A model generated the notes under the pieces. The model had not been told where the DNA came from. It did no database searches and saw only the letters and a program-made list of their open reading frames with translations. Below are positions 6,679 to 32,123 of a stretch of DNA of 37,302 nucleotides, piece after piece. Position numbers and translations under genes: made by a program. The stretch comes from a virus. The stretch lies in IMG/VR virus record IMGVR_UViG_3300032046_000094, positions 1 to 37,302 of that record. One strand, written 5' to 3'. Numbering within the stretch: the first letter of the stretch is position 1; the number at the start of each line of letters is the position of its first letter.

Positions 6679-6945
6679 TTATTTTTTCTTTGAGCTTTTT
6701 TTCTCTTCACTTTCAGACATATAGCTCTCTACGTCTTTTGTTGCTTTTGCTAATTTTTCACTATCAGAAATCTTTTCATCTACAATACTTACCCAAGCAT
6801 TTTCGATTTCAATTTTATTTAAGATTTCAGAACAATCATTAATTTCAATAATTCCATTAGATTCTAACTCAACTGATTTACGAGCACCTTCATTATTAAT
6901 ATAATAAATCATTTTAGGACCTACGCTATTATTTTTAAGTTTCAT
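6679..6945 (-). CDS. Small hypothetical protein upstream of the sheath
   Basis: The 88-residue protein has a short beta-rich N-terminal part (KMIYYINNEGARKSVELESNG) and a charged helical tail ending SEEKKSSKKK. It has no recognised family. It is 25 nt upstream of the sheath gene with no terminator between, and a late motif sits 22 nt before its start, so it is probably the first gene of the sheath transcript. A small virion or assembly factor is possible. Confidence 0.65.
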   Translation of the reverse strand: MKLKNNSVGPKMIYYINNEGARKSVELESNGIIEINDCSEILNKIEIENAWVSIVDEKISDSEKLAKATKDVESYMSESEEKKSSKKK

Positions 6946-6967
6946 TATCTCTTAATTTTTATTTCCA

Positions 6968-6976
6968 ATAAATAGT
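6968..6976 (-). promoter_or_regulatory. Late-promoter-like motif ACTATTTAT
   Basis: Exact minus-strand ACTATTTAT, 22 nt before the start at 6945, heading the sheath transcript. Confidence 0.55.
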
Positions 6977-6992
6977 GGGAAATTCTCAAAAC

Positions 6993-7703
6993 TCACAGCT
7001 CTTTTATGTCTATTTTAATTTTAGTTATCGTTGGCACTCTTTCAAAGTTTGCAGGGTCCACTAATTTGCCATAAACTGACAATGGAAACACAATTTGAAA
7101 CTTTCTATCTGCAGTAATTTCATCAACAGTATTATCTTCACTTGGGTCACTAAGCATTAATGGAATATGATAGCCATTTATGTTCATATAGCCCTGTCCA
7201 TCAGAAAATCCATCCATTATCATTCTTTCATAAGAAGTATTCGTATCCTGTATGTAATGTGTTAAGAAACGCAATTCATATTGAGCGTCTACTCGCGGAG
7301 GTTGTGGAATTTTATATAAATCATAACCTTTAAGAGTTCCGTCAAAAATAGGAACTTTTACAAAAACAAATTTTTTCTTTTTTGGAATAGTTCTTTTTAA
7401 GGGATTTTGGCCGGGTTTTACGCCAGTTCTTCTAATTGCCATAAAAGGCATATTTATTTCCTCTCCACTTTCATCTTTTAAGAATTTCCAGTTCATTTTA
7501 AATTCAGCCCATCTTTCTTGATTTAAAAATATAAGAGGAACCTTTGCCAATCTATCTTCAGCATTAACAACAGAAATGTTTAAAGAATTAATATAATCCA
7601 CTACTCCTTGGTCAATATCTTCCAAAAGGAGCTTTTTTGGTAGGTAATCATTGTTTTCAAAACTTTGATTAAGTAGGTCGTTTATGTTTTTTTGAATAGA
7701 CAT
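6993..7703 (-). CDS. Tail completion / sheath terminator protein (T4 gp15-like)
   Basis: The 236-residue protein fits the gp15 tail-terminator group in length and position (between neck genes and sheath, as in T4). Visible features include a basic loop NPLKRTIPKKKKFVFVKVPIFDG, the segment YDLYKIPQPPRVDAQYELRFLTHYIQDTN, and a strand-rich C-terminus ending ITKIKIDIKEL. The motif in which the protein describes a conversion from ligand map to direct coordinates (QYELRF) is typical of this family as I recall it. The protein caps the last sheath/tube ring and joins tail to neck. The assignment depends partly on gene order. Confidence 0.7.
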   Translation of the reverse strand: MSIQKNINDLLNQSFENNDYLPKKLLLEDIDQGVVDYINSLNISVVNAEDRLAKVPLIFLNQERWAEFKMNWKFLKDESGEEINMPFMAIRRTGVKPGQNPLKRTIPKKKKFVFVKVPIFDGTLKGYDLYKIPQPPRVDAQYELRFLTHYIQDTNTSYERMIMDGFSDGQGYMNINGYHIPLMLSDPSEDNTVDEITADRKFQIVFPLSVYGKLVDPANFERVPTITKIKIDIKEL

Positions 7704-22298: not shown

Positions 22299-22682
22299 AT
22301 GGTAGACACATCAAAAAACTTAGTAGGTAAAAAAGTTAAAGTACAAAAAACATCAGGCCATGGAGCTCCAATAGGTTCAATGGCCACAATCACATCTGTA
22401 GCAAATGGACAAATAAGATTGAAAGAATTTCCTTCTTGGACATTTTATGCAACTGATATAGAGCTTTGTGCTTTAACTCGCGAAGAAATTCAGAAAGAAA
22501 TTTCAAGTCTTGAAGAAAAAATAAAAGTAGAACAAGAAAAACTACAATTTATGTCAGACAATAATGTTGAAGAGTTTGACGAAACTCAATACAAGGTGTT
22601 TAAAACACTGGCAACATTGGATAATAAGGAGATTTCTGCTATGGAAAAATCCAAATTAATCGCCTCATTAATAAACGGTTAA
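22299..22682 (+). CDS. SH3-like/coiled-coil protein, second of a tandem pair
   Basis: The 127-residue protein is a paralogue of the preceding one. Shared segments are GK-VKV in the barrel, and NNV-EFDE-QYKVF-TL-TLDNK-IS--EKSKLI in the C-terminal helices. The barrel half has diverged strongly (GHGAPIGSMATITSVANGQIRLKEFPSW), which suggests the copies bind different partners through different barrels while the helical half dimerises. It is the last gene before the tRNA-cluster promoter. Confidence 0.7.
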   Translation: MVDTSKNLVGKKVKVQKTSGHGAPIGSMATITSVANGQIRLKEFPSWTFYATDIELCALTREEIQKEISSLEEKIKVEQEKLQFMSDNNVEEFDETQYKVFKTLATLDNKEISAMEKSKLIASLING

Positions 22683-22700
22683 AAAATATTTTCAAAAATA

Positions 22701-22732
22701 TTTGGTTTTTTGTAACTTTTGTACTATCTTTG
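22701..22732 (+). promoter_or_regulatory. Host-type promoter of the tRNA cluster leader
   Basis: TTTG at 22701-22704 and TATCTTTG at 22725-22732 with exactly 20 nt between, the same geometry as the promoter at 7747-7778. Transcription would start near 22739. Confidence 0.7.
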
Positions 22733-22764
22733 ACGTATAAATAAAAAAACGAACTATTTAATAT

Positions 22765-22814
22765 AAGTTGAACCCCAGAAAAACGAAAGATAAAGTGTGG
22801 GTCTTTCGCAACTT
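22765..22814 (+). promoter_or_regulatory. Possible pseudoknotted 5' leader structure
   Basis: AAGTTG (22765-22770) pairs with CAACTT (22809-22814), and inside it CGAAAGA (22784-22790) pairs with TCTTTCG (22802-22808), so the two helices stack end to end. CCCA at 22774-22777, in the left loop, can pair with TGGG at 22798-22801 in the hairpin loop, giving a pseudoknot. It lies between the promoter and the leader ORF at 22830. It may be an aptamer or a stability element; no known riboswitch class is recognised. Confidence 0.45.
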
Positions 22815-22829
22815 GATTAGAATTTTAAA

Positions 22830-22928
22830 ATGAAAAATGTAAACACATACACGGCTTCTCAAAGACAATTGTCTTTAGAACAACTAATATTAAGTTGTAA
22901 GGCCGGGCTATGTTCGTTTATTAAGTAA
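22830..22928 (+). CDS. Leader peptide 1 (32 aa), codon-sampling
   Basis: A 33-codon frame (MKNVNTYTASQRQLSLEQL...) lies between the tRNA-cluster promoter and a terminator. Codons 8-21 (22851-22892) read ACG GCT TCT CAA AGA CAA TTG, then TCT TTA GAA CAA CTA ATA TTA. The first seven tRNA genes downstream have anticodons for ACG, TTA, AGA, TTG, GAA, ATA and CTA, and every one of those codons is present; CAA is read by a later gene. Codons 24-26 (AAG GCC GGG) hold the antiterminator strand. A protein function is unlikely; the frame most likely senses translation speed. Many of these codons are common in AT-rich genomes, so chance is not excluded. Confidence 0.6.
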   Translation: MKNVNTYTASQRQLSLEQLILSCKAGLCSFIK

Positions 22929-22979
22929 TATAAATAACGTTCTTTTAGAAACCCCGGCTTGAAAAAGTCGGGGTTTTTT
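22899..22979 (+). promoter_or_regulatory. Attenuator 1: terminator with competing antiterminator
   Basis: The terminator stem is CCCCGGCTT (22952-22960) with AAGTCGGGG (22965-22973), GAAA loop, then TTTTTT. AAGGCCGGG at 22899-22907, inside leader ORF 1, resembles the 3' strand and can pair with CCCGGCTT (8 bp with one bulged G). The two pairings exclude each other. A ribosome held on the codon run would leave the antiterminator strand free; one moving on would cover or pass it and let the terminator form. Confidence 0.6.
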
Positions 22980-22994
22980 GTTTTATTGAATTTT

Positions 22995-23065
22995 GCCTTT
23001 GTAGCTCAGTTGTAGAGCGTCTCTTTCGTAAAGAGAAGGTCACCAGGTCGAACTGGTCTAAGGCT
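22995..23065 (+). tRNA. tRNA-Thr (CGU)
   Basis: Anticodon loop TTCGTAA between TCTCT and AGAGA gives CGU. D-arm GCTC/GAGC is normal. The T-arm is odd: CCAG GTCGAA CTGG has a 6-nt loop, one base short, and the acceptor has a T-T mismatch at 6-67. CCA is not encoded. It might be inactive or tolerated. Confidence 0.7.
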
Positions 23066-23073
23066 CAAAAAAT

Positions 23074-23154
23074 GTCCCTGTGGCGAAATTGGAAGCACGC
23101 GTAGGTCTTAAACACCTATCCTTCGGGGTGCCGGTTCGAAGCCGGCCAGGGATA
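23074..23154 (+). tRNA. tRNA-Leu (UAA)
   Basis: Anticodon stem TAGGT/ACCTA with loop CTTAAAC gives UAA. Long variable arm (TCCTTCGGGG), T-arm GCCGG/CCGGC, A73. Class II body as expected for Leu. Confidence 0.9.
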
Positions 23155-23166
23155 CAACAAATAAAT

Positions 23167-23240
23167 GCTCTCGTAGCACAACGGAATAGTGTCTTTGTTT
23201 TCTAAACAATTGGATGGAGGTTCGAATCCTCTCGAGAGTA
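23167..23240 (+). tRNA. tRNA-Arg (UCU)
   Basis: Acceptor GCTCTCG/CGAGAGT, anticodon loop TTTCTAA gives UCU (AGA codons). T-arm GGAGG/CCTCT region intact. A second UCU tRNA lies at 30080. Confidence 0.88.
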
Positions 23241-23261
23241 CAAATGGTTCTTTGAAATAAT

Positions 23262-23345
23262 GCCGAAATGGTGGAATGGTAGACACCGCAGATTCAAAAC
23301 CTGCCGCTTATATGCGTAAGAGTTCGAGTCTCTTTTTCGGCACCA
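23262..23345 (+). tRNA. tRNA-Leu (CAA)
   Basis: Acceptor GCCGAAA/TTTCGGC, anticodon loop TTCAAAA gives CAA (TTG codons), with an A-C mismatch at the loop-closing pair. Long variable arm. The 3' ACCA is encoded, unlike its neighbours. Confidence 0.85.
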
Positions 23346-23348
23346 AAT

Positions 23349-23433
23349 GGTGTGTTATGCAAACTGGTTGACGCGGTCAGTTTTTCAAACTGGCGTCCGA
23401 AAGGATTTAAGGGTTCGAGCCCCTTACACACTA
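23349..23433 (+). tRNA. Class II tRNA with apparent Glu anticodon (UUC)
   Basis: Acceptor GGTGTGT/ACACACT, D-arm TGC/GCG, anticodon stem TCAGT/ACTGG with loop TTTTCAA giving UUC, then a 15-nt variable arm folding as TCC GAAA GGA, T-arm AAGGG/CCCTT, A73. Glu tRNAs normally have a short variable loop; this body is Leu-like. If the stem is drawn one step differently the anticodon centre becomes ambiguous (UCA possible), so amino-acid identity is uncertain. Confidence 0.75.
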
Positions 23434-23437
23434 CAAT

Positions 23438-23511
23438 GGCCACATAGCTCAATTGGTGAGAGCAGGACGCTTATATCGTCAAGGTTGGGGGTTCGAGACC
23501 CTCTGTGGCTA
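23438..23511 (+). tRNA. tRNA-Ile (UAU)
   Basis: Acceptor GGCCACA/TGTGGCT, D-arm GCTC/GAGC, anticodon loop CTTATAT gives UAU, reading the AUA codon. One G-A mismatch at the base of the anticodon stem. Confidence 0.85.
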
Positions 23512-23528
23512 CAATAAATAAAAATGAA

Positions 23529-23696
23529 ATGAGTAAAATAGAAAAGAAAAAAGAAAAATTAAAAGAAAGAATTGAAATTTTAGAAACTGAATTAAGAATG
23601 TCATTGACAAAGAAAACATCTACAACGAAAGAAATAAATGTTCCTTCTTACCAAAGAAAAATTCAAGAACTAAAAATTGAATTACAAAAAATGTAA
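23529..23696 (+). CDS. Small coiled-coil protein inside the tRNA cluster (55 aa)
   Basis: I choose the ATG at 23529; the frame can be opened by a GTG inside the preceding tRNA, which is unlikely. The product is a charged coiled coil (KKKEKLKERIEILETELRMSLTKK, then YQRKIQELKIELQKM) with a central EINVPSY turn. Small proteins of this look occur in Bacteroidota and their phages, as I recall. It ends 8 nt before tRNA-Leu (UAG), so it shares the tRNA transcript. Function unknown. Confidence 0.65.
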   Translation: MSKIEKKKEKLKERIEILETELRMSLTKKTSTTKEINVPSYQRKIQELKIELQKM

Positions 23697-23704
23697 TTTA
23701 AAAT

Positions 23705-23786
23705 GCCTCCTTGGTGGAAAGAGTAGACGCGCTGGTCTTAGGAACCAGTATCGAAAGATGTTCCGGTTCGAGTCCGGAAGGAGGTA
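23705..23786 (+). tRNA. tRNA-Leu (UAG)
   Basis: Acceptor GCCTCCT/AGGAGGT, anticodon stem CTGGT/ACCAG with loop CTTAGGA gives UAG (CTA codons), long variable arm, T-arm TCCGG/CCGGA, A73. Confidence 0.92.
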
Positions 23787-23874
23787 CTAACTGAAAAGAA
23801 TGTTTTTGCAACTGAAGAACTTTGCAAAAATGTTTTTCTGAATTGAGTGCACACAATTTAGATAGGTTTAAAAT

Positions 23875-23948
23875 GGTCCTGTGGAGTAGCTGGTTAACTC
23901 GTCGCACTTTCACTGCGAAGATTGCGGGTTCGAACCCCGTCGGGACTA
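23875..23948 (+). tRNA. tRNA-Glu (UUC)
   Basis: Acceptor GGTCCTG/CGGGACT, anticodon stem TCGCA/TGCGA with loop CTTTCAC gives UUC. Short variable loop, T-arm GCGGG/CCCGT. This is a normal class I Glu tRNA, in contrast to the class II one at 23349. Confidence 0.9.
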
Positions 23949-24023
23949 CGCGTGAGTGATGACTAAGGTTCCTCATAAAGGTAAAAATGAACGTAGTTGA
24001 CAATCTGGAATAGACAGATATAT

Positions 24024-24096
24024 GACCCTATCGTCTAATGGCTTAGGATACTGCTTTCTCAAGGCGGTGATGCGGATTCGAATTCCGTTGGGGTTA
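24024..24096 (+). tRNA. tRNA-Glu (CUC)
   Basis: Acceptor GACCCTA/TGGGGTT, D-arm of Glu type (TCGTCTAATGG), anticodon loop TTCTCAA gives CUC (GAG codons). T-arm GCGGA/TCCGT region present. Confidence 0.85.
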
Positions 24097-24122
24097 CAAG
24101 TTTACTTTTTAATTAAAGTAAG

Positions 24123-24130
24123 TATATTTG
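24123..24130 (+). promoter_or_regulatory. Host-type -7 box TATATTTG before tRNA-Leu (AAG)
   Basis: Perfect TAnnTTTG, 12 nt before the tRNA at 24143 and just after a weak TTACTTT/AAAGTAA hairpin. It could start a second transcript carrying the Gln-codon leader. Confidence 0.5.
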
Positions 24131-24142
24131 AACAATAACAAT

Positions 24143-24222
24143 GCCGATGTGGTGTAACTGGCAGCCACGTATGTCTAAGAAGCATATGCGAAAGCGTCTC
24201 GGTTCGATTCCGGGCATCGGCA
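24143..24222 (+). tRNA. tRNA-Leu (AAG)
   Basis: Acceptor GCCGATG/CATCGGC, anticodon stem TATGT/GCATA with loop CTAAGAA gives AAG (CUU codons). Variable arm with a GAAA loop, A73. A34 may be read as is or after deamination. Confidence 0.8.
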
Positions 24223-24237
24223 CAATATAATAAAAAA

Positions 24238-24312
24238 ATGAAAACAAATTTTGTACAACAACAGCAACAACAACAAACTCTGAACAAGGGTTCTGGAATT
24301 GCTATGTCGTAA
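24238..24312 (+). CDS. Leader peptide 2 (24 aa) with seven consecutive Gln codons
   Basis: The frame is MKTNFVQQQQQQQTLNKGSG plus four more residues. Codons 7-13 (24256-24276) are CAA CAA CAG CAA CAA CAA CAA. It is followed by a terminator and then by three tRNA genes with Gln anticodons: UUG, a class II UUG, and CUG. Codons GGT TCT GGA (24289-24297) carry GTTCTGG, a copy of the terminator's 3' strand. This is the design of amino-acid biosynthesis attenuators (trp, his), but here the regulated genes are the tRNAs themselves. The peptide itself probably has no function. Confidence 0.8.
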   Translation: MKTNFVQQQQQQQTLNKGSGIAMS

Positions 24313-24366
24313 AAAATTAATTAATGATGTACAAGCCTGGAACTTAAATGTTCTGGGCTTTTTTAT
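24290..24366 (+). promoter_or_regulatory. Attenuator 2: terminator with competing antiterminator
   Basis: The terminator stem is AGCCTGGAAC (24334-24343) with GTTCTGGGCT (24350-24359), 10 bp with two G-T pairs, then TTTTTTATTTTA. GTTCTGG at 24290-24296, within the leader ORF, repeats the first seven bases of the 3' strand and can pair with CTGGAAC in place of it. A ribosome waiting on the Gln run leaves it free (read-through); a ribosome at the stop codon (24310-24312) would cover part of it (termination). Confidence 0.72.
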
Positions 24367-24373
24367 TTTATAA

Positions 24374-24444
24374 TGTGCTGTAGTTTAATGTAGAATTCCG
24401 CCCTTTGAAGGCGTGAGATAATGGTTCGAGTCCATTTGGCACAA
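24374..24444 (+). tRNA. tRNA-Gln (UUG)
   Basis: Acceptor TGTGCTG/TGGCACA with the weak U1-A72 pair typical of bacterial Gln tRNA. Anticodon stem CGCC/GGCG with loop CTTTGAA gives UUG. Short variable loop. First gene after attenuator 2. Confidence 0.88.
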
Positions 24445-24450
24445 CAATAT

Positions 24451-24535
24451 TACGGGATATGCAAATTGGCAAGCACACATACTTTGAATATGTTTTGGAG
24501 AAATCCATTTGTAGGTTCGAACCCTACTCCCGTAA
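24451..24535 (+). tRNA. Class II tRNA with apparent Gln anticodon (UUG)
   Basis: Acceptor TACGGGA/TCCCGTA (7 bp, U1-A72), D-arm TGC/GCA, perfect anticodon stem ACATA/TATGT with loop CTTTGAA giving UUG. A 17-nt variable arm contains TGGA GAAA TCCA; T-arm GTAGG/CCTAC; A73. The length of 85 nt and D-arm (TATGCAAA-TGG) match the class II Glu-anticodon tRNA at 23349. Gln tRNAs are not class II, so charging identity is uncertain (Leu or Gln). Confidence 0.8.
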
Positions 24536-24537
24536 CT

Positions 24538-24664
24538 TGGTATTGACAATTGCTTTCTTCGGTAAAGATAGTCCTAAATAACTGCAGAAAAGCAGAAGAA
24601 TGAGGAGGATTGATTTACAGAAAGGCGCAGAAGAAGTAAGTCCTTTCTAGCGTTGTTGATACCA
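24538..24664 (+). ncRNA. Candidate stable structured RNA between tRNA genes
   Basis: The spacer is closed by a 12-bp helix with two G-T pairs: TGGTATTGACAA (24538-24549) with TTGTTGATACCA (24653-24664). Inside are CTTT/AAAG (24553-24566 area), AGTCCT/AGGATT enclosing CTGC/GCAG, and GAAAGG/CCTTTC. That makes a multibranched, cloverleaf-like fold of 127 nt. No ORF of note is present. T4 also has two stable RNAs of unknown function (species 1 and 2, or RNA C and D) inside its tRNA cluster, which makes a similar role plausible. Confidence 0.6.
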
Positions 24665-24671
24665 TATTATT

Positions 24672-24741
24672 GGAGAGTCGTCTAATGGTAGTGATTTGTG
24701 GCTCTGAACCACAAGATGGCAGTTCGAGTCTGTCCTCTCCA
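24672..24741 (+). tRNA. tRNA-Gln (CUG)
   Basis: Acceptor GGAGAGT/CCTCTCC (one T-C mismatch at 7-66), anticodon stem TGTGG/CCACA with loop CTCTGAA gives CUG (CAG codons). Short variable loop. Last tRNA of the main cluster. Confidence 0.85.
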
Positions 24742-24778
24742 ACTTATTATATTGTCGTTAATATTTAAGTTTTTTCGA

Positions 24779-24787
24779 ACTATTTAT
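24779..24787 (+). promoter_or_regulatory. Late-promoter-like motif ACTATTTAT on the plus strand
   Basis: Exact copy of the virion-operon motif in plus orientation, 23 nt before the HNH gene at 24811. It is the only exact copy I found before a plus-strand gene. Confidence 0.45.
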
Positions 24788-24810
24788 ATTAAACTTAAAA
24801 AGCAACGACT

Positions 24811-25650
24811 ATGAAAAATGAAGGAAAATTATGGACATATGAAGAAAGTGAATTTCTTAAAAGAAATTATTCAATTTATGGACCACAATATTGTTCTGAA
24901 AAATTATTTCGAAATAAAAAAGCAATCATAAAAAGAGCTAATATTTTAAAAATAAAATTTAATGGAATAAAATTTATTTATTTACAAGAAAATTTAGAAC
25001 CAATTATAAAAGAATCATTATCCATAACAGAAGTTATTAAAAAATTAGGTTTAAAAGCAGCTGGTGGTAATCATAAAACAATAAAAAATTATATAGAAAG
25101 ATATTGTATTAATATATCGCATTTTAATAATCAAGCTATTGAAAATTTAAAAACTCATATAATCAAAATTACCATTCCATTAGAAGATATATTGGTAGAA
25201 AATTCTAATTATAACAGAACTCATTTAAAAGCACGTTTATATAAAGAAGGTTTAAAAAAACATGAATGTGAAGATTGTGGACAAGGAGAAGAGTGGAATG
25301 GTAAAAAAATGAGTTTAATTCTTGACCATAAAAATGGAATTAACAATGATAATAGATTATTAAATTTGAGAATTTTATGTCCTAATTGTGCATCTACACT
25401 TCCAACTCATTGTAGGGGAAGTAAAGGTTTAGAAAACAATAAAAAAATAATATTAGAAAAAACCAAAAAAATACTTATTGATAAAAGAAATAGAGCGGCT
25501 TTAGAAAAAAGAATAGTAAATAGACCTCCATTTGAAGAACTTAAGAAAGAAATTAAAATCACAGGATATTCAGCTACAGGTAGAAAATACGGAGTTTCAG
25601 ATAATGCTATAAGAAAATGGATAAAAAGCTATGAAAAATATGGACTATGA
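24811..25650 (+). CDS. HNH endonuclease (probable homing endonuclease)
   Basis: The 279-residue protein has a zinc-stabilised HNH core: CEDCG near residue 152, LILDHKNGINNDNRLLNLRILCPNC at about 170-194, with catalytic His in LDHKNG and the N/R of NDNRLLNLR. Flanking regions hold DNA-binding repeats: an N-terminal segment (WTYEESEFLKRNYSIYGPQYCSEKL, SANT/Myb-like) and a C-terminal HTH (SATGRKYGVSDNAIRKWIKSY). This order fits a free-standing homing endonuclease. It lies next to the tRNA cluster and is very AT-rich. The 4-nt overlap with the next gene couples their translation. Confidence 0.85.
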   Translation: MKNEGKLWTYEESEFLKRNYSIYGPQYCSEKLFRNKKAIIKRANILKIKFNGIKFIYLQENLEPIIKESLSITEVIKKLGLKAAGGNHKTIKNYIERYCINISHFNNQAIENLKTHIIKITIPLEDILVENSNYNRTHLKARLYKEGLKKHECEDCGQGEEWNGKKMSLILDHKNGINNDNRLLNLRILCPNCASTLPTHCRGSKGLENNKKIILEKTKKILIDKRNRAALEKRIVNRPPFEELKKEIKITGYSATGRKYGVSDNAIRKWIKSYEKYGL

Positions 25651-26038: not shown

Positions 26039-26851
26039 ATGAACGAATCACAAAAATATTGCAGGAGCTTACATGCTCAAATTTCTCTTGGAACCACAAG
26101 TGATGACCGGTTTATGCCTGATGGATACATAAAAGCTTTTGCTGATATGCCGGTTGGGCATATTCTTACCGAGAAATTGGATGGAGAAAATAATGCATTT
26201 ACAAAATATGGTTTTTTTGCAAGAAGTCATACGGCCCCAACTGTAAGTCCTTGGACTAAACCATTAAGAGAACGATGGGAACTTATAAAAAACGACCTTG
26301 GTGATTTAGAAATATTTGGTGAAGGAATGTATGGTATTCATTCTATAGAATATTCAAAACTTGAATCATATTATTATATGTTCGGAATTAGAGAAAAAGG
26401 TGTGTGGCTTAGTTGGGAAGAAGTTAAATTTTATGCTAATCTTTTTGATTTCCCTACAGTTCCGGAAATAGAAATCAGAGTTCCATTAAAAGATTTTTCT
26501 TTTGCATTAAAAGAGGGACATGATGAAAATTTTGTATTGAGAGATTGGTTTAGAGCTAATCTAGGAATGACTTGGGAAGAAAGTGTAGATACAGAAGGAT
26601 TGCTCGGAGGAAAAGACCCAGTGACAGGAAAACCTTGTTCAGAAGGATTTGTAATTAGAAATTCAAATTCATTTAAAACGAATGATGGAGTATTACCGGT
26701 AGCTGATAATGAGTTTAATAATTTATTTAAACTTGTTCGAGGTAAACACGTTAAAACAGATGTGCATTGGACAAAAACTTGGAAACCAGCGACGCTTATA
26801 GATTATACAAAATTTAATTGGCATTCTTACGAATTTATGAAAACAAAATAA
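26039..26851 (+). CDS. RNA ligase
   Basis: The 270-residue protein shows the nucleotidyltransferase motifs of the RNA-ligase family in order: motif I EKLDGEN with adenylated K46, motif Ia-like FFARSHT, motif III YYYMFGIR, motif IV EGFVIR (near 205), motif V NLFKLVRGK (near 230). It lacks the C-terminal domain of T4 Rnl1, so it is a small Rnl2/Rnl5-like type. It seals 5'-phosphate and 3'-OH RNA ends using ATP. The end-healing enzyme HD-Pnk lies two genes downstream on the same strand, giving a full repair pathway for cut tRNAs. Confidence 0.9.
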   Translation: MNESQKYCRSLHAQISLGTTSDDRFMPDGYIKAFADMPVGHILTEKLDGENNAFTKYGFFARSHTAPTVSPWTKPLRERWELIKNDLGDLEIFGEGMYGIHSIEYSKLESYYYMFGIREKGVWLSWEEVKFYANLFDFPTVPEIEIRVPLKDFSFALKEGHDENFVLRDWFRANLGMTWEESVDTEGLLGGKDPVTGKPCSEGFVIRNSNSFKTNDGVLPVADNEFNNLFKLVRGKHVKTDVHWTKTWKPATLIDYTKFNWHSYEFMKTK

Positions 26852-27032: not shown

Positions 27033-27336
27033 GACAATACATAAAGTAAGAGTAACCGAAGGTAAATGGACTGAATTTTGGTTTAAAGAAGACTTGGTAC
27101 CTATTGAAATATATAGTGAGCGTGATAAGTTTAACGCAAATGAAAGTTTTCACGCATGTATGAAAACTTATATGTTTTTAGATGTTTTATATAATGAAGG
27201 AATTTATTCAGACGTTTTAACAGATGGGTTTAAAAATAGAAAAACAGTTTGGAAAATGAGTCAATATGAAACACATTATGAATTTGTAGGTATGTTAAAG
27301 GAAACTAGAATAGTGTTGTTTGAAAAAGTAAAATGA
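27013..27336 (+). CDS. Hypothetical protein between RNA ligase and HD-Pnk
   Basis: The 107-residue protein is soluble and mixed alpha/beta, with RVTEGKWTEFWFKEDLVPIEIYSE in the first half and THYEFVGMLKETRIVLFEKVK at the end. No family is recognised. It overlaps both neighbours (20 nt and 4 nt), so it is co-translated with the RNA-repair genes. Confidence 0.65.
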   Translation: MAEELIKTIHKVRVTEGKWTEFWFKEDLVPIEIYSERDKFNANESFHACMKTYMFLDVLYNEGIYSDVLTDGFKNRKTVWKMSQYETHYEFVGMLKETRIVLFEKVK

Positions 27337-28421
27337 AAAAAATAGAGTCATATAACAATTTCAGTAAGGATGTTTTGGATATTTTCGAACAAATGAAAGT
27401 AACCAAACAAAGTCCTATTCACCATGCTGAAGGTGATGTATATACTCATACTTGTATGGTTGTGGATGAAGTCGAAAAAATAAAATCAAACTTTAATCCA
27501 GACGCACAAGAACGACTTATTTATACCGGCATTTTTCATGACATTGCAAAACCAAAAACAACAATTTTTGACGAAGAAATAACAGATTGGGTTAGTCCAA
27601 AACATTCAAAAATCGGAGAGCCTATGTTTAGAGATTTGATGTGGGATAATTTTAATCATAATCAAAGGGAGCAAATTGCAAAATTAATTCGATATCACGG
27701 ACTACCTATTTGGAACGAAGAAAAGGAAGACCCAGATATGTCAATAATAAAAGCTTCTATAGGATGTAATATAAAAGAGCTTTCTACATTTGCAGAATGT
27801 GATTTTAGAGGAAGAATTTGTAGTGATTTAGATGAATGTATTTTTAAAATAGAACTTTTCAAAGAAAGAGCTCAAAACCTTAATTGTTTTGACCAACCAT
27901 ACCAATTTTCAAATGATTGGGCCAGAATTCATTATTTTAAAAATGGTGGATATCCCGGTAAAGAAATTTGGGAACCAGAAGGTGGATGGGTTACAATTAT
28001 GTGTGGTCTTCCTGGAAGTGGCAAAAACACTTGGATAGAAAAAAATTATAGTGGGCCAATTATTGAACTTGATGCTATTCGTAAAAAACACAAAATAAAA
28101 TGGAGTGATGAAAAAGCTCAAGGATTCGTTTTTCAAGAAGCAAAAGAAGAATTAAAAGTTAATCTTAGAAAAAAACAAGATGTTCTTTGGAATGGAACTA
28201 ATATGACCGAACTTCAAAGGTCAACTATTGCAGACATGGCTCTTGATTATCGCGCTAAAGTTAAAATTATTTATATTGATTGTTCTGTTGAGCAAGCTTT
28301 GATTCAAAACAGAAAAAGAGAAGAGTCTAAGATGGTTAAAGATGAAGTAATAAAAAGATATTCTAGAAAAATGGAAATTCCAAGTTTGGCTGAATGTCAT
28401 AAGTTAGAAATAATAAAATAA
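27333..28421 (+). CDS. HD-Pnk: HD-domain phosphoesterase fused to polynucleotide kinase
   Basis: The 362-residue protein has an HD domain at about 28-190 (H39 in YTHT, H69-D70 in GIFHDIAKP, H110-type histidines further on). A P-loop kinase domain starts at about 215 with CGLPGSGKNTW (K231). It matches the HD-Pnk type described from Runella: the HD part removes 2',3'-cyclic or terminal phosphates and the kinase phosphorylates 5'-OH ends. N232 stands where the Walker A Ser/Thr is usual, a variant I have seen in phage kinases. With the ligase two genes upstream and 15 tRNA genes nearby it should mend RNAs cut by host anticodon nucleases. Confidence 0.88.
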   Translation: MKKIESYNNFSKDVLDIFEQMKVTKQSPIHHAEGDVYTHTCMVVDEVEKIKSNFNPDAQERLIYTGIFHDIAKPKTTIFDEEITDWVSPKHSKIGEPMFRDLMWDNFNHNQREQIAKLIRYHGLPIWNEEKEDPDMSIIKASIGCNIKELSTFAECDFRGRICSDLDECIFKIELFKERAQNLNCFDQPYQFSNDWARIHYFKNGGYPGKEIWEPEGGWVTIMCGLPGSGKNTWIEKNYSGPIIELDAIRKKHKIKWSDEKAQGFVFQEAKEELKVNLRKKQDVLWNGTNMTELQRSTIADMALDYRAKVKIIYIDCSVEQALIQNRKREESKMVKDEVIKRYSRKMEIPSLAECHKLEIIK

Positions 28422-30528: not shown

Positions 30529-31293
30529 ATGTCAAACGAAAAAAGAGCTTTGTTTATAGGAAGGTGGCAACCATTTCATTTAGGTCACGAATGGTTAATT
30601 AAAAACAAACTAGATAAAAATATTCCGGTCTTAATAATGGTTAGAGATGTTACTCCGGACGAATCAAATCCTTTACCTGCAGAAACCTCAGCAATGATAA
30701 TTGAAAAAGCTTTTGAAACTTGTGATGTTGAAGTTATGATTATACCAGACATTGAATCTGTAAATTGGGGAAGAGGTGTTGGTTATGAAGTAAATGAATT
30801 TGAGCCACCTCCAGCAATATACAATATTAGTGCTACTCAAATAAGAAAAGAAATTTCTGAAGGAAGTGAATCTTGGAAAGAAAAAGTAAATCCAAGAATA
30901 CACAATATTGTTGAAGAAAGTTTATCTTCTATTAATAAATTAAAAACATATCGTTTTTATAAAGAAGGCAAAAGGTGGTATGTTGACCTTCCTGAATGGA
31001 CTGGAACAAAAGCTGATTTAGAAATGGTAGCCGGCGCCGACACAATGCTTGAAATCATTACAGAAAACGGGACAGAAGTTAAATTAAACATTTCTTTATC
31101 AGAATACCCTGGTTCAACAGAATTGAAATTGATACGCAACGGAGGAGAAGAAGGTGGAGGTTATTATATTATGGAAAGTTATGAAGAATCTTCAAATACA
31201 CCATTAAATCTTGAATTATGGCTTTGTGATGTAACAAAGTTTGTCTTCGATGGTCCAATGCCAGAAAAGATTTTTATAAGAAAAACTTTATAA
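30529..31293 (+). CDS. NMN-adenylyltransferase-like domain fused to an uncharacterised C-terminal domain
   Basis: Residues 1-130 form a nucleotidyltransferase domain with LFIGRWQPFHLGHEWLI (the GRxQPxHxGH nucleotide site) and YNISATQIRKEI (the ISxTxIR motif), as in NadM/NadR-type NMN adenylyltransferases that make NAD from NMN and ATP. Residues about 140-254 are a separate beta-rich domain: FYKEGKRWYVDLPEWTGTKADLEMVAGADTMLE, later LELWLCDVTKFVFDG. It looks like a small uncharacterised family (I believe DUF6717). The fusion is unusual. With the nicotinamidase at 11127 it points to NAD metabolism. The stop overlaps the start of the methyltransferase by one base. Confidence 0.85.
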   Translation: MSNEKRALFIGRWQPFHLGHEWLIKNKLDKNIPVLIMVRDVTPDESNPLPAETSAMIIEKAFETCDVEVMIIPDIESVNWGRGVGYEVNEFEPPPAIYNISATQIRKEISEGSESWKEKVNPRIHNIVEESLSSINKLKTYRFYKEGKRWYVDLPEWTGTKADLEMVAGADTMLEIITENGTEVKLNISLSEYPGSTELKLIRNGGEEGGGYYIMESYEESSNTPLNLELWLCDVTKFVFDGPMPEKIFIRKTL

Positions 31294-32123
31294 TGTCCAA
31301 GAAAAACATTTTATCTTTATTTGATGGTTTAGGAGGAGCACGAATTGCTTTAGATGAATTAGGTGTTGAGTGTAATTATTATGCCAGCGAAATTGATGAA
31401 TATGCAATGAGGGTTCATAAAGCAAATTATCCTAACACTATTCATCTTGGAGATATTAGAAATATAAAAGCTGCTGATTTACCTAAAATACATTTATTAA
31501 TTGGAGGTTCTCCTTGTCAAAATTTAACTATGGCCGGGGATAAAAAAGGATTAGATGGAGAAAAGAGTTCTTTATTTTTTGAATATGTGAGATTAAAAAA
31601 AGAATTAAATCCAAAATATTTTTTATTAGAAAATGTGGCCAGTATGAAAAATACTGAAAAAGATAAAATGAGCGAATTAATGGGTGTCCAACCTATTAAA
31701 ATAAACTCGGCCGATTTCACAGCTCAAAATAGAAATAGATATTACTGGACAAATATACCGGTAGATGAATATGGAAAATGCGACATAATGTTAAAAGATG
31801 TTTTGGAAGATATTGATGAATTTCATTTGTCAAAAAAACATCATCAAGCATTTTTAAAATCTTATAAATGGAAATCAACGGACATTAATGGCAAATCAAA
31901 AGTATTGATGGCTTCTTATTATAAACAACCTCCTCACGCGCCATATATTGAATGTAAAACAAGTGAAAGTGGATTTAGAATGTTGTCGCCTTTAGAGTGT
32001 GAACGATTACAGGGACTGCCAGATAATTATACGAATTATGTCAGCAAGACTCAAAGATATAAAATGATTGGAAATGGATTCACAGTGCCAGTTATTAAAC
32101 ACTTATTAAAGAATATAAAATAA
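31293..32123 (+). CDS. DNA cytosine-C5 methyltransferase
   Basis: The 276-residue protein has the ordered motifs of C5-MTases: I SLFDGLGGARIAL, IV GGSPCQNL with catalytic C75, VI ENV (113-115), VIII QNRNRYYW (145-152), IX RMLSPLECERLQGLPDNYT and X YKMIGNGFTVPVI. The target-recognition region between VIII and IX is short (about 75 residues), so the recognition site is probably short. No restriction endonuclease is adjacent, so it is a solitary enzyme that may protect phage DNA or affect gene expression. Its start overlaps the previous stop by one base, and a bidirectional terminator follows. Confidence 0.93.
   Translation: MSKKNILSLFDGLGGARIALDELGVECNYYASEIDEYAMRVHKANYPNTIHLGDIRNIKAADLPKIHLLIGGSPCQNLTMAGDKKGLDGEKSSLFFEYVRLKKELNPKYFLLENVASMKNTEKDKMSELMGVQPIKINSADFTAQNRNRYYWTNIPVDEYGKCDIMLKDVLEDIDEFHLSKKHHQAFLKSYKWKSTDINGKSKVLMASYYKQPPHAPYIECKTSESGFRMLSPLECERLQGLPDNYTNYVSKTQRYKMIGNGFTVPVIKHLLKNIK

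Follow-up and report, generated by a model that had tools for sequence, protein, structure and literature searches.

The question raised by this locus is why a short open reading frame (ORF) containing seven consecutive Gln codons, followed by an intrinsic terminator, should be situated directly before tRNA-Gln genes. The stretch analysed here, referred to as the window, comprises 37,302 nucleotides of viral DNA. An earlier note, made from the sequence alone, had proposed that the layout is that of trp/his-type attenuation with the sensed tRNA as the output. We consider it very likely that ribosome-mediated transcription attenuation controls each tRNA operon in the window phage and its relatives; no expression data are available. 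The analysis shows the parts of such a system, their recurrence, the match between leader codons and tRNAs, a mutually exclusive pairing and its compensatory evolution.

Two leader units in the window

Leader ORF 2 and terminator 2 are placed between a tRNA-Leu gene and three tRNA-Gln genes. The features of this unit are as follows; the tRNA genes are ARAGORN/Rfam calls and the antiterminator strands come from predicted folds.

24238..24312, forward strand: leader ORF 2, ATG at 24238, stop codon TAA at 24310-24312, 24 codons, MKTNFVQQQQQQQTLNKGSGIAMS
24288..24310, forward strand: antiterminator 5' strand of leader 2, GGGTTCTGG..TTG.TATGTCGT
24324..24345, forward strand: antiterminator 3' strand of leader 2, including the terminator 5' arm CCTGGAAC
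24333..24369, forward strand: intrinsic terminator 2, an 11-pair stem (24333-24343 / 24350-24360) followed by a T-rich tract, TTTTTTATTTT
24374-24445, forward strand: tRNA-Gln(UUG)
24451-24536, forward strand: tRNA-Gln(UUG) with a long variable arm, 86 nt
24671-24743, forward strand: tRNA-Gln(CUG)

The seven Gln codons occupy 24256-24276 and form the longest Gln run in the six frames of the window. The earlier note had described the 24-codon ORF with this run, the intrinsic terminator before the tRNA-Gln genes and the anticodons UUG, UUG (long variable arm) and CUG in the genes that follow, and all of these claims held. Its further claim, that a copy of GTTCTGG within the ORF (24290-24296) enables an antiterminator, also held, the predicted antiterminator being longer than had been claimed. 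The segments GGGTTCTGG (24288-24296), TTG (24299-24301) and TATGTCGT (24303-24310) are predicted to pair with 24324-24334 and 24337-24345, and the 5' strand runs over the ORF end as far as the first base of the stop codon. The RNA from 24283 to 24350 is predicted to fold into the antiterminator (-16.0 kcal/mol) while the terminator 3' arm is still unmade, and in the full-length leader RNA the terminator is predicted to win over the antiterminator. The folding z-score of the 150-nt leader region is -4.9 and the pairing of leader 2 with the terminator arm gave p = 0.012 against shuffles; together with the Gln run and the recurrence of all parts in a near relative (L002), these results show that the arrangement exceeds chance.

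A second attenuator in the same window (22830-22977) had been overlooked by the earlier note. Leader ORF 1 was found by a scan for an ORF and a terminator in which codons were not a criterion, and its unit consists of the following features.

22725..22732, forward strand: promoter motif TATCTTTG, matching the Bacteroidota -7 consensus TAnnTTTG
22830..22928, forward strand: leader ORF 1, MKNVNTYTASQRQLSLEQLILSCKAGLCSFIK, with Leu, Arg, Glu, Ile and Thr codons
22899..22916, forward strand: antiterminator 5' strand of leader 1, AAGGCCGGGCTATGTTCG, pairing with 22948-22961
22948..22977, forward strand: intrinsic terminator 1, GAAACCCCGGCTTGAAAAAGTCGGGGTTTT, preceding ten tRNA genes
22995..23065, forward strand: tRNA-Thr, anticodon loop CGU read by eye (Rfam RF00005, 56.8 bits; missed by ARAGORN)
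23074..24223, forward strand: tRNA genes Leu(UAA), Arg(UCU), Leu(CAA), Glu(UUC), Ile(UAU), Leu(UAG), Glu(UUC), Glu(CUC) and Leu(AAG)

TAnnTTTG is the -7 promoter consensus of Bacteroidota, and the TATCTTTG motif lies 98 nt upstream of the first leader ATG. The ten tRNAs behind terminator 1 are, in order, Thr, Leu, Arg, Leu, Glu, Ile, Leu, Glu, Glu and Leu. The leader-1 antiterminator duplex has a predicted energy of -16.1 kcal/mol (shuffle p = 0.014), and a homologue of the leader, MKNITTYNSLRQLSLEQLIEEKSVWPDNVRL, is present in L002. A small lysine/glutamate-rich coding frame was also observed in the tRNA array, between tRNA-Ile and the following tRNA (window 23505-23696), and is kept in L002 at about 6889-7054.

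The near relative L002 was found via the neighbouring RNA ligase (62% identity) and is represented by three identical contigs. Its Gln leader at 7358-7429 (MKTIFVQQQQQQTLSKSSGIAMS; MKTIFVQ6TLSKSSGIAMS) occupies the same place as leader 2; behind it come a terminator and two tRNA-Gln(UUG) genes. Between the two phages the ORF has been kept, with 22 identical bases at its end, and the terminator stem has largely changed (AAACCCGGGACA/TGTCTCGGGTTT vs AAGCCTGGAAC/GTTCTGGGCTT, L002 vs window comparison); despite the re-made stem, the L002 terminator 5' arm CCGGGAC is still able to pair with GTTCTGG. The check that the earlier note had asked for, conservation of the Gln run, the mimic and the terminator in relatives, gave a positive result.

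Leaders before Gln and other tRNA operons

A DNA pattern for the exact peptide of the Gln leader matched only the near relative, and a structural pattern was therefore adopted: five Gln codons, a T-run and a tRNA T-loop with the anticodon unspecified, scanned over 2.9 million viral contigs. At least 119 stretches were recovered, most matches of this and a second generic scan being coding poly-Gln. In the first scan, every same-strand tRNA preceded by a run of at least four Gln codons at a distance of no more than 300 nt was a tRNA-Gln. The second generic scan added MKNLTLQQQQQMIKLD and one unrelated exception, L170, where poly-Q lies upstream of a CUA tRNA within a longer 53-aa frame; it was rejected as a leader.

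The Gln leaders found include MNNNISNMIQ5TYV, MRTTTQYQ5INPTD, MTTTSQYQ5INRTD, MTTFTQYQ5INRTD and MKTVININVQ7SSKEDSPGGA, each with a terminator next to it, and mostly they stand directly behind a tRNA, that is, as internal attenuators. With one exception, the Gln leaders show clear pairing between ORF end and terminator arm (e.g. CAGATTGA:TCAATCTG). The exception, L027/L254, has tandem terminators of which the scanner took the second; inspection by eye shows GATTGGGT, downstream of the ORF, pairing with ACCCAATC in the first terminator. On the reverse strand of L027, two tandem terminators follow the MNNNISNMIQQQQQTYV leader, and the ORF end pairs with the first. Phage isolates searched with the window tRNA region gave tRNA matches only, and no cultured phage with these leaders came to light among the isolates.

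The trp/his-type reading predicts leaders for other amino acids before other tRNAs. These were found without codon selection by a codon-blind scan that required a terminator no more than 150 nt upstream of a tRNA and, ahead of that terminator, a short ORF, a generality that the earlier note had overlooked. In several phages nearly every tRNA operon has a leader, with codons matching the tRNAs behind it, and the same layout occurs in about 20 other phage records, including public huge phages of 634, 642 and 735 kb. These three genomes have been placed in the Mahaphage clade, with predicted Bacteroidetes hosts (Al-Shayeb et al. 2020); the phages carrying such leaders are large and their hosts are probably Bacteroidota. 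The leaders and the tRNAs that they precede include the following.

HKHFSKSSKWF: Phe, His, (Trp) and Lys
SKSSSSRSSR (SSSSRSS): Arg and three Ser, the Ser genes read by eye
YYYEE: Glu and Tyr
IAIIAGGAG: Ile and Gly
Q5-7: Gln
NLNMNMNTLTVVNNTLCIR: Asn, Arg, Leu, Val, Ile, Thr and Met
NPQPQVVIDQDPD: Asp and Pro
TTINNTICNKKQN: Asn, Thr, Lys, Ile and Cys
TPAPAVAFRRGTGTGTGTCVPAG: a 15-tRNA array of Arg, Thr, Val, Ala, Gly and Pro in the 735-kb phage LR756501

Leaders change with operon fusion: separate Tyr/Glu and Ile/Gly operons have separate leaders, and fused operons have GAYEAGYAYEG or EAIGYAYEAG, the latter preceding Tyr, Glu, Ile, Gly and Ala. On the reverse strand of L283 (1905-2108, LR756501.1), a single leader for six amino acids stands before the 15-tRNA array for the same six, apparently as a many-input OR gate. 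The start codons have the A/T-rich context before ATG that is typical of Bacteroidota, which does not itself show translation, and TAnnTTTG lies within 95 nt of 22 of the 30 operon-head leaders in related phages (1.7 expected from shuffles).

The codon match was assessed by re-pairing leaders with operons in all possible ways within each genome, homologous leaders not being independent. The true pairing of the eight leaders of LR745206 with its eight operons ranks 1/40320; other single genomes gave ranks of 1/720, 1/720 and 1/24, and a 385-kb phage, in which ARAGORN missed the Ser genes, gave 2/5040. The true pairing was matched in 0/100000 joint permutations across genomes. Clustering of leaders into families by shared 3-mers had chained unrelated leaders and weakened the permutation test, and the within-genome permutation was used instead. 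Of the leader residues upstream of the antiterminator strand, 47% are encoded by cognate codons, vs 21% of those downstream; the direction is the same in 41/41 leaders, with the boundary itself chosen by the duplex search.

Pairing of the ORF end with the terminator 5' arm exceeded dinucleotide shuffles, with a Fisher p of 3e-14 when 22 operon classes are taken and of 9e-30 when all 43 cases, which are not independent, are included; it was weak against shuffles in L271 (Ser/Arg, p = 0.60) and L241 (Ile/Gly, p = 0.35). The native terminator arm pairs more strongly than arms swapped within the same genome in 156 of 170 comparisons (permutation 0/100000), and among HKHFSK homologues in 141 of 146 (-13.3 vs -7.8 kcal/mol). 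Fifteen such homologues have a common coding core and an antiterminator in at least five complementary sequence versions (GTTCGGTAC:GTCCGAAC, GAACTTGG:CCAAGTTC, ATCGGGGTT:AACCCCGAT, GGTTCGTGC:GCTCGAACC and GATTCGA:TCGAATT). The leader-terminator pairing has been rebuilt by compensating changes between homologues.

No leader was detected by the same scan in the fetched regions of LR756511, LR756508 and Flavobacterium phage immuto, which hold more than 70 tRNA genes. In bacterial genomes the HKHFSK pattern gave 38 matches, none of which serves a tRNA operon as its leader; this leaves room for cellular leaders with different sequences. An ORF before a lone tRNA-Met (L277) failed both tests and was taken as a scanner false positive. 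Lone tRNAs with a CUA anticodon (amber suppressor; "Pyl" in ARAGORN) occur without a leader in L244, L245, L252, L267 and L284, and in L252 a terminator, with no ORF, lies just before the tRNA. A GOLLD RNA (Rfam RF02032, 287 bits) is located beside a tRNA-Met at L256 40876-41281 (LR745206.1, the 634-kb phage).

Predicted mechanism and rival explanations

In the proposed mechanism the transcript would start upstream, often at a Bacteroidota-type promoter, and would first encode a leader peptide of 16-42 codons, the early and middle codons of which are those read by the tRNAs of the operon. A strand complementary to the terminator 5' arm would follow at the ORF end, just past the cognate codons, with the intrinsic terminator placed directly ahead of the tRNA genes. 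When cognate charged tRNAs are plentiful, the ribosome would trail RNA polymerase to the ORF end, where it would make the antiterminator strand unavailable, so that the terminator is made and transcription stops. When one cognate tRNA is short, the ribosome would stall on its codons and leave that strand free, whereupon the antiterminator would form and the tRNA genes would be transcribed, giving a feedback loop whose output is the very species that it senses. Translation of the ORFs, stalling, read-through and a tRNA-depleting signal are inferred, and the leader peptides are likely to be unfolded. The proposal of trp/his-type attenuation with the sensed tRNA as output is supported; that read-through depends on leader translation remains unproven.

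In fold predictions with the ribosome stalled at the last cognate codon before the strand, the terminator 5' arm is sequestered with a mean probability of 0.69; with the ribosome at the stop codon the value falls to 0.09, assuming no pairing across the ribosome. Without a ribosome the mean is 0.64, and mostly read-through is predicted. The predicted logic is therefore that efficient translation of the test codons gives termination and slow translation gives read-through into the tRNA genes. The trp leader has a protector 1:2 hairpin that leads to termination without translation, a feature not required of the class. Since the terminator arm is mostly sequestered in the absence of a ribosome, a general trp-like 1:2 hairpin halting the untranslated leader is unsupported, in which respect the phage units differ from trp; a candidate protector hairpin (AACUCU/AGRGUU) occurs in the window and L002 and is not general among leaders. 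In several HKHFSK-type leaders 21-25 nt separate the end of the antiterminator strand from the stop codon, which places the strand upstream of the footprint of a terminating ribosome; shut-off there must therefore depend on timing or on strand separation by the ribosome.

Four other readings were weighed. The elements could be ordinary terminators and promoters between tRNA units, with coincidental small ORFs and a Gln microsatellite; terminators are indeed common between transcription units, and slippage can yield CAA repeats in an AT-rich genome. Coincidence is nevertheless very improbable in view of the leader-operon codon match, the shuffle and swap tests, the retention of the peptide beside a re-made terminator, the compensatory changes, and the leaderless result of the same scan in LR756511, LR756508 and immuto. 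It could also be argued that the peptides themselves act, as arrest peptides or small regulatory proteins, with the codon match being secondary, since the Gln leaders of the window and L002 share the C-terminal residues SGIAMS, and other leader ends are likewise identical within families. The conserved ends, however, are the antiterminator strands and differ wholly between families, the composition tracks the tRNAs, and some Gln leaders are just 16-17 aa long; we hold this reading to be most unlikely.

Reverse polarity, in which a stalled ribosome causes termination and tRNAs are made only under efficient translation, draws on the predicted read-through of ribosome-free RNA, which means that translation as such represses. 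Against it, the folds predict that a ribosome stalled on the cognate codons does not mask the antiterminator strand (terminator arm sequestered at 0.69, vs 0.09 for a ribosome at the stop codon if nothing pairs across it), the cognate codons precede that strand and are not within it, and positive feedback on tRNA supply needs no operon-specific cognate codons, so that it too has very little to commend it. A less remote possibility, still unlikely, accepts the attenuator and takes host amino-acid starvation, not tRNA loss, as the meaningful signal. Classical attenuators sense charged tRNA, which drops when the amino acid is scarce, and a leader cannot distinguish starvation from tRNA loss; but extra tRNA is no cure for an amino-acid shortage, one operon may serve amino acids with no relation to each other (e.g. 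His, Phe, Trp and Lys), and the output consists of tRNA genes only. Attenuation answering to the supply of the individual tRNA remains the preferred reading.

Known systems, possible purpose and neighbouring genes

The phage units show four of the defining parts of trp/his-type attenuation: a leader ORF, its translation being inferred, cognate codons, a terminator, and an antiterminator using the terminator 5' arm. Like the trp, his, ilvGMEDA and thr leaders of E. coli, they have a short ORF with codons for the regulated species, a terminator before the first gene and a mutually exclusive antiterminator, and, as in ilv and thr, several amino acids may be represented in one leader. They differ from amino-acid attenuators in that the output is tRNA genes and that there is one matched leader per tRNA operon genome-wide. 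In E. coli pheST (pheM leader, Phe codons) leader codons likewise control a component of tRNA charging; that attenuator regulates an aminoacyl-tRNA synthetase, not tRNA genes, and responds to a single amino acid. T-box riboswitches also let the charging state of a specific tRNA control terminator read-through, but bind uncharged tRNA directly and have no leader ORF. No T-box was matched by Rfam in window 22600-24900 at E ≤ 1, none reached the gathering score in six related loci, and no Rfam leader family reached its gathering score at the sites examined.

The earlier note knew of no phage system that regulates its own tRNA genes by codon supply, and no contrary description, nor any account of such control of tRNA operons, was met in the literature searched, which was open-access only and cannot prove absence. 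Trp-type attenuation is known; what distinguishes the phage units is that tRNA-gene operons are the output.

The purpose of phage tRNA genes has been debated for more than 50 years (PMC10264068). Host nucleases destroy particular tRNAs and phage tRNAs replace them (PMC10264068, PMC11555353, PMC13096335), and such defence-evading replacement offers a plausible purpose for attenuator control. The searched text from these three papers, a set only partly covered, mentions no attenuator or leader peptide, and PMC11555353 describes strong promoters for phage tRNAs rather than feedback control. The physiological trigger is a matter of inference: it may be cleavage of host tRNAs, turnover of tRNA or starvation for amino acids. 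A bolder reading, which seems to us slightly less likely than not, is that large Bacteroidota phages carry genome-wide, codon-addressed tripwires. Each operon would have a leader of its own that probes translation of just those codons which its tRNAs decode, so that a host tRNA cleaved by a defence system, or lost by decay, would switch on only the matching operon as a replacement.

If attenuation is confirmed, these phages would be adjusting to how much of each tRNA is available in the course of infection, and would appear to make tRNAs on demand. Codon compensation and defence evasion would become directly testable, each leader reporting which tRNA runs short and when. Ribosome-mediated attenuation, familiar from amino-acid biosynthesis, would gain a further role in the feedback control of tRNA genes, in which leaders can take several inputs (OR gates) and some tRNA arrays contain a second, internal attenuator. 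The leaders also offer a route to annotating tRNA clusters of huge phages and predicting their regulation.

Two genes behind the tRNA array bear on the question of purpose.

26039-26851 of the window: RNA ligase (Pfam RNA_ligase, 6e-21), immediately following the tRNA array
27333-28421 of the window: HD + AAA_33 protein, weakly similar to RNA kinases, also behind the tRNA array

The HD + AAA_33 protein may be an RNA end-healing enzyme, and the two proteins, whose function is inferred, are likely to form a repair pair, which would fit tRNA repair. L002 has the ligase; the HD/AAA families had no match among the six downstream ORFs tested there. Directly after tRNA-Gln(CUG), window 24811-25650 encodes CxxC...DHxNGxxxDNR...CPNC, a pattern that visual inspection assigns to an HNH homing-type endonuclease; the equivalent place in L002 holds other ORFs, and a LAGLIDADG-like ORF lies at L002 9511-10422. 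Further along the window, an NMN adenylyltransferase-like protein (30529-31293) adjoins a DNA cytosine methyltransferase (31293-32123).
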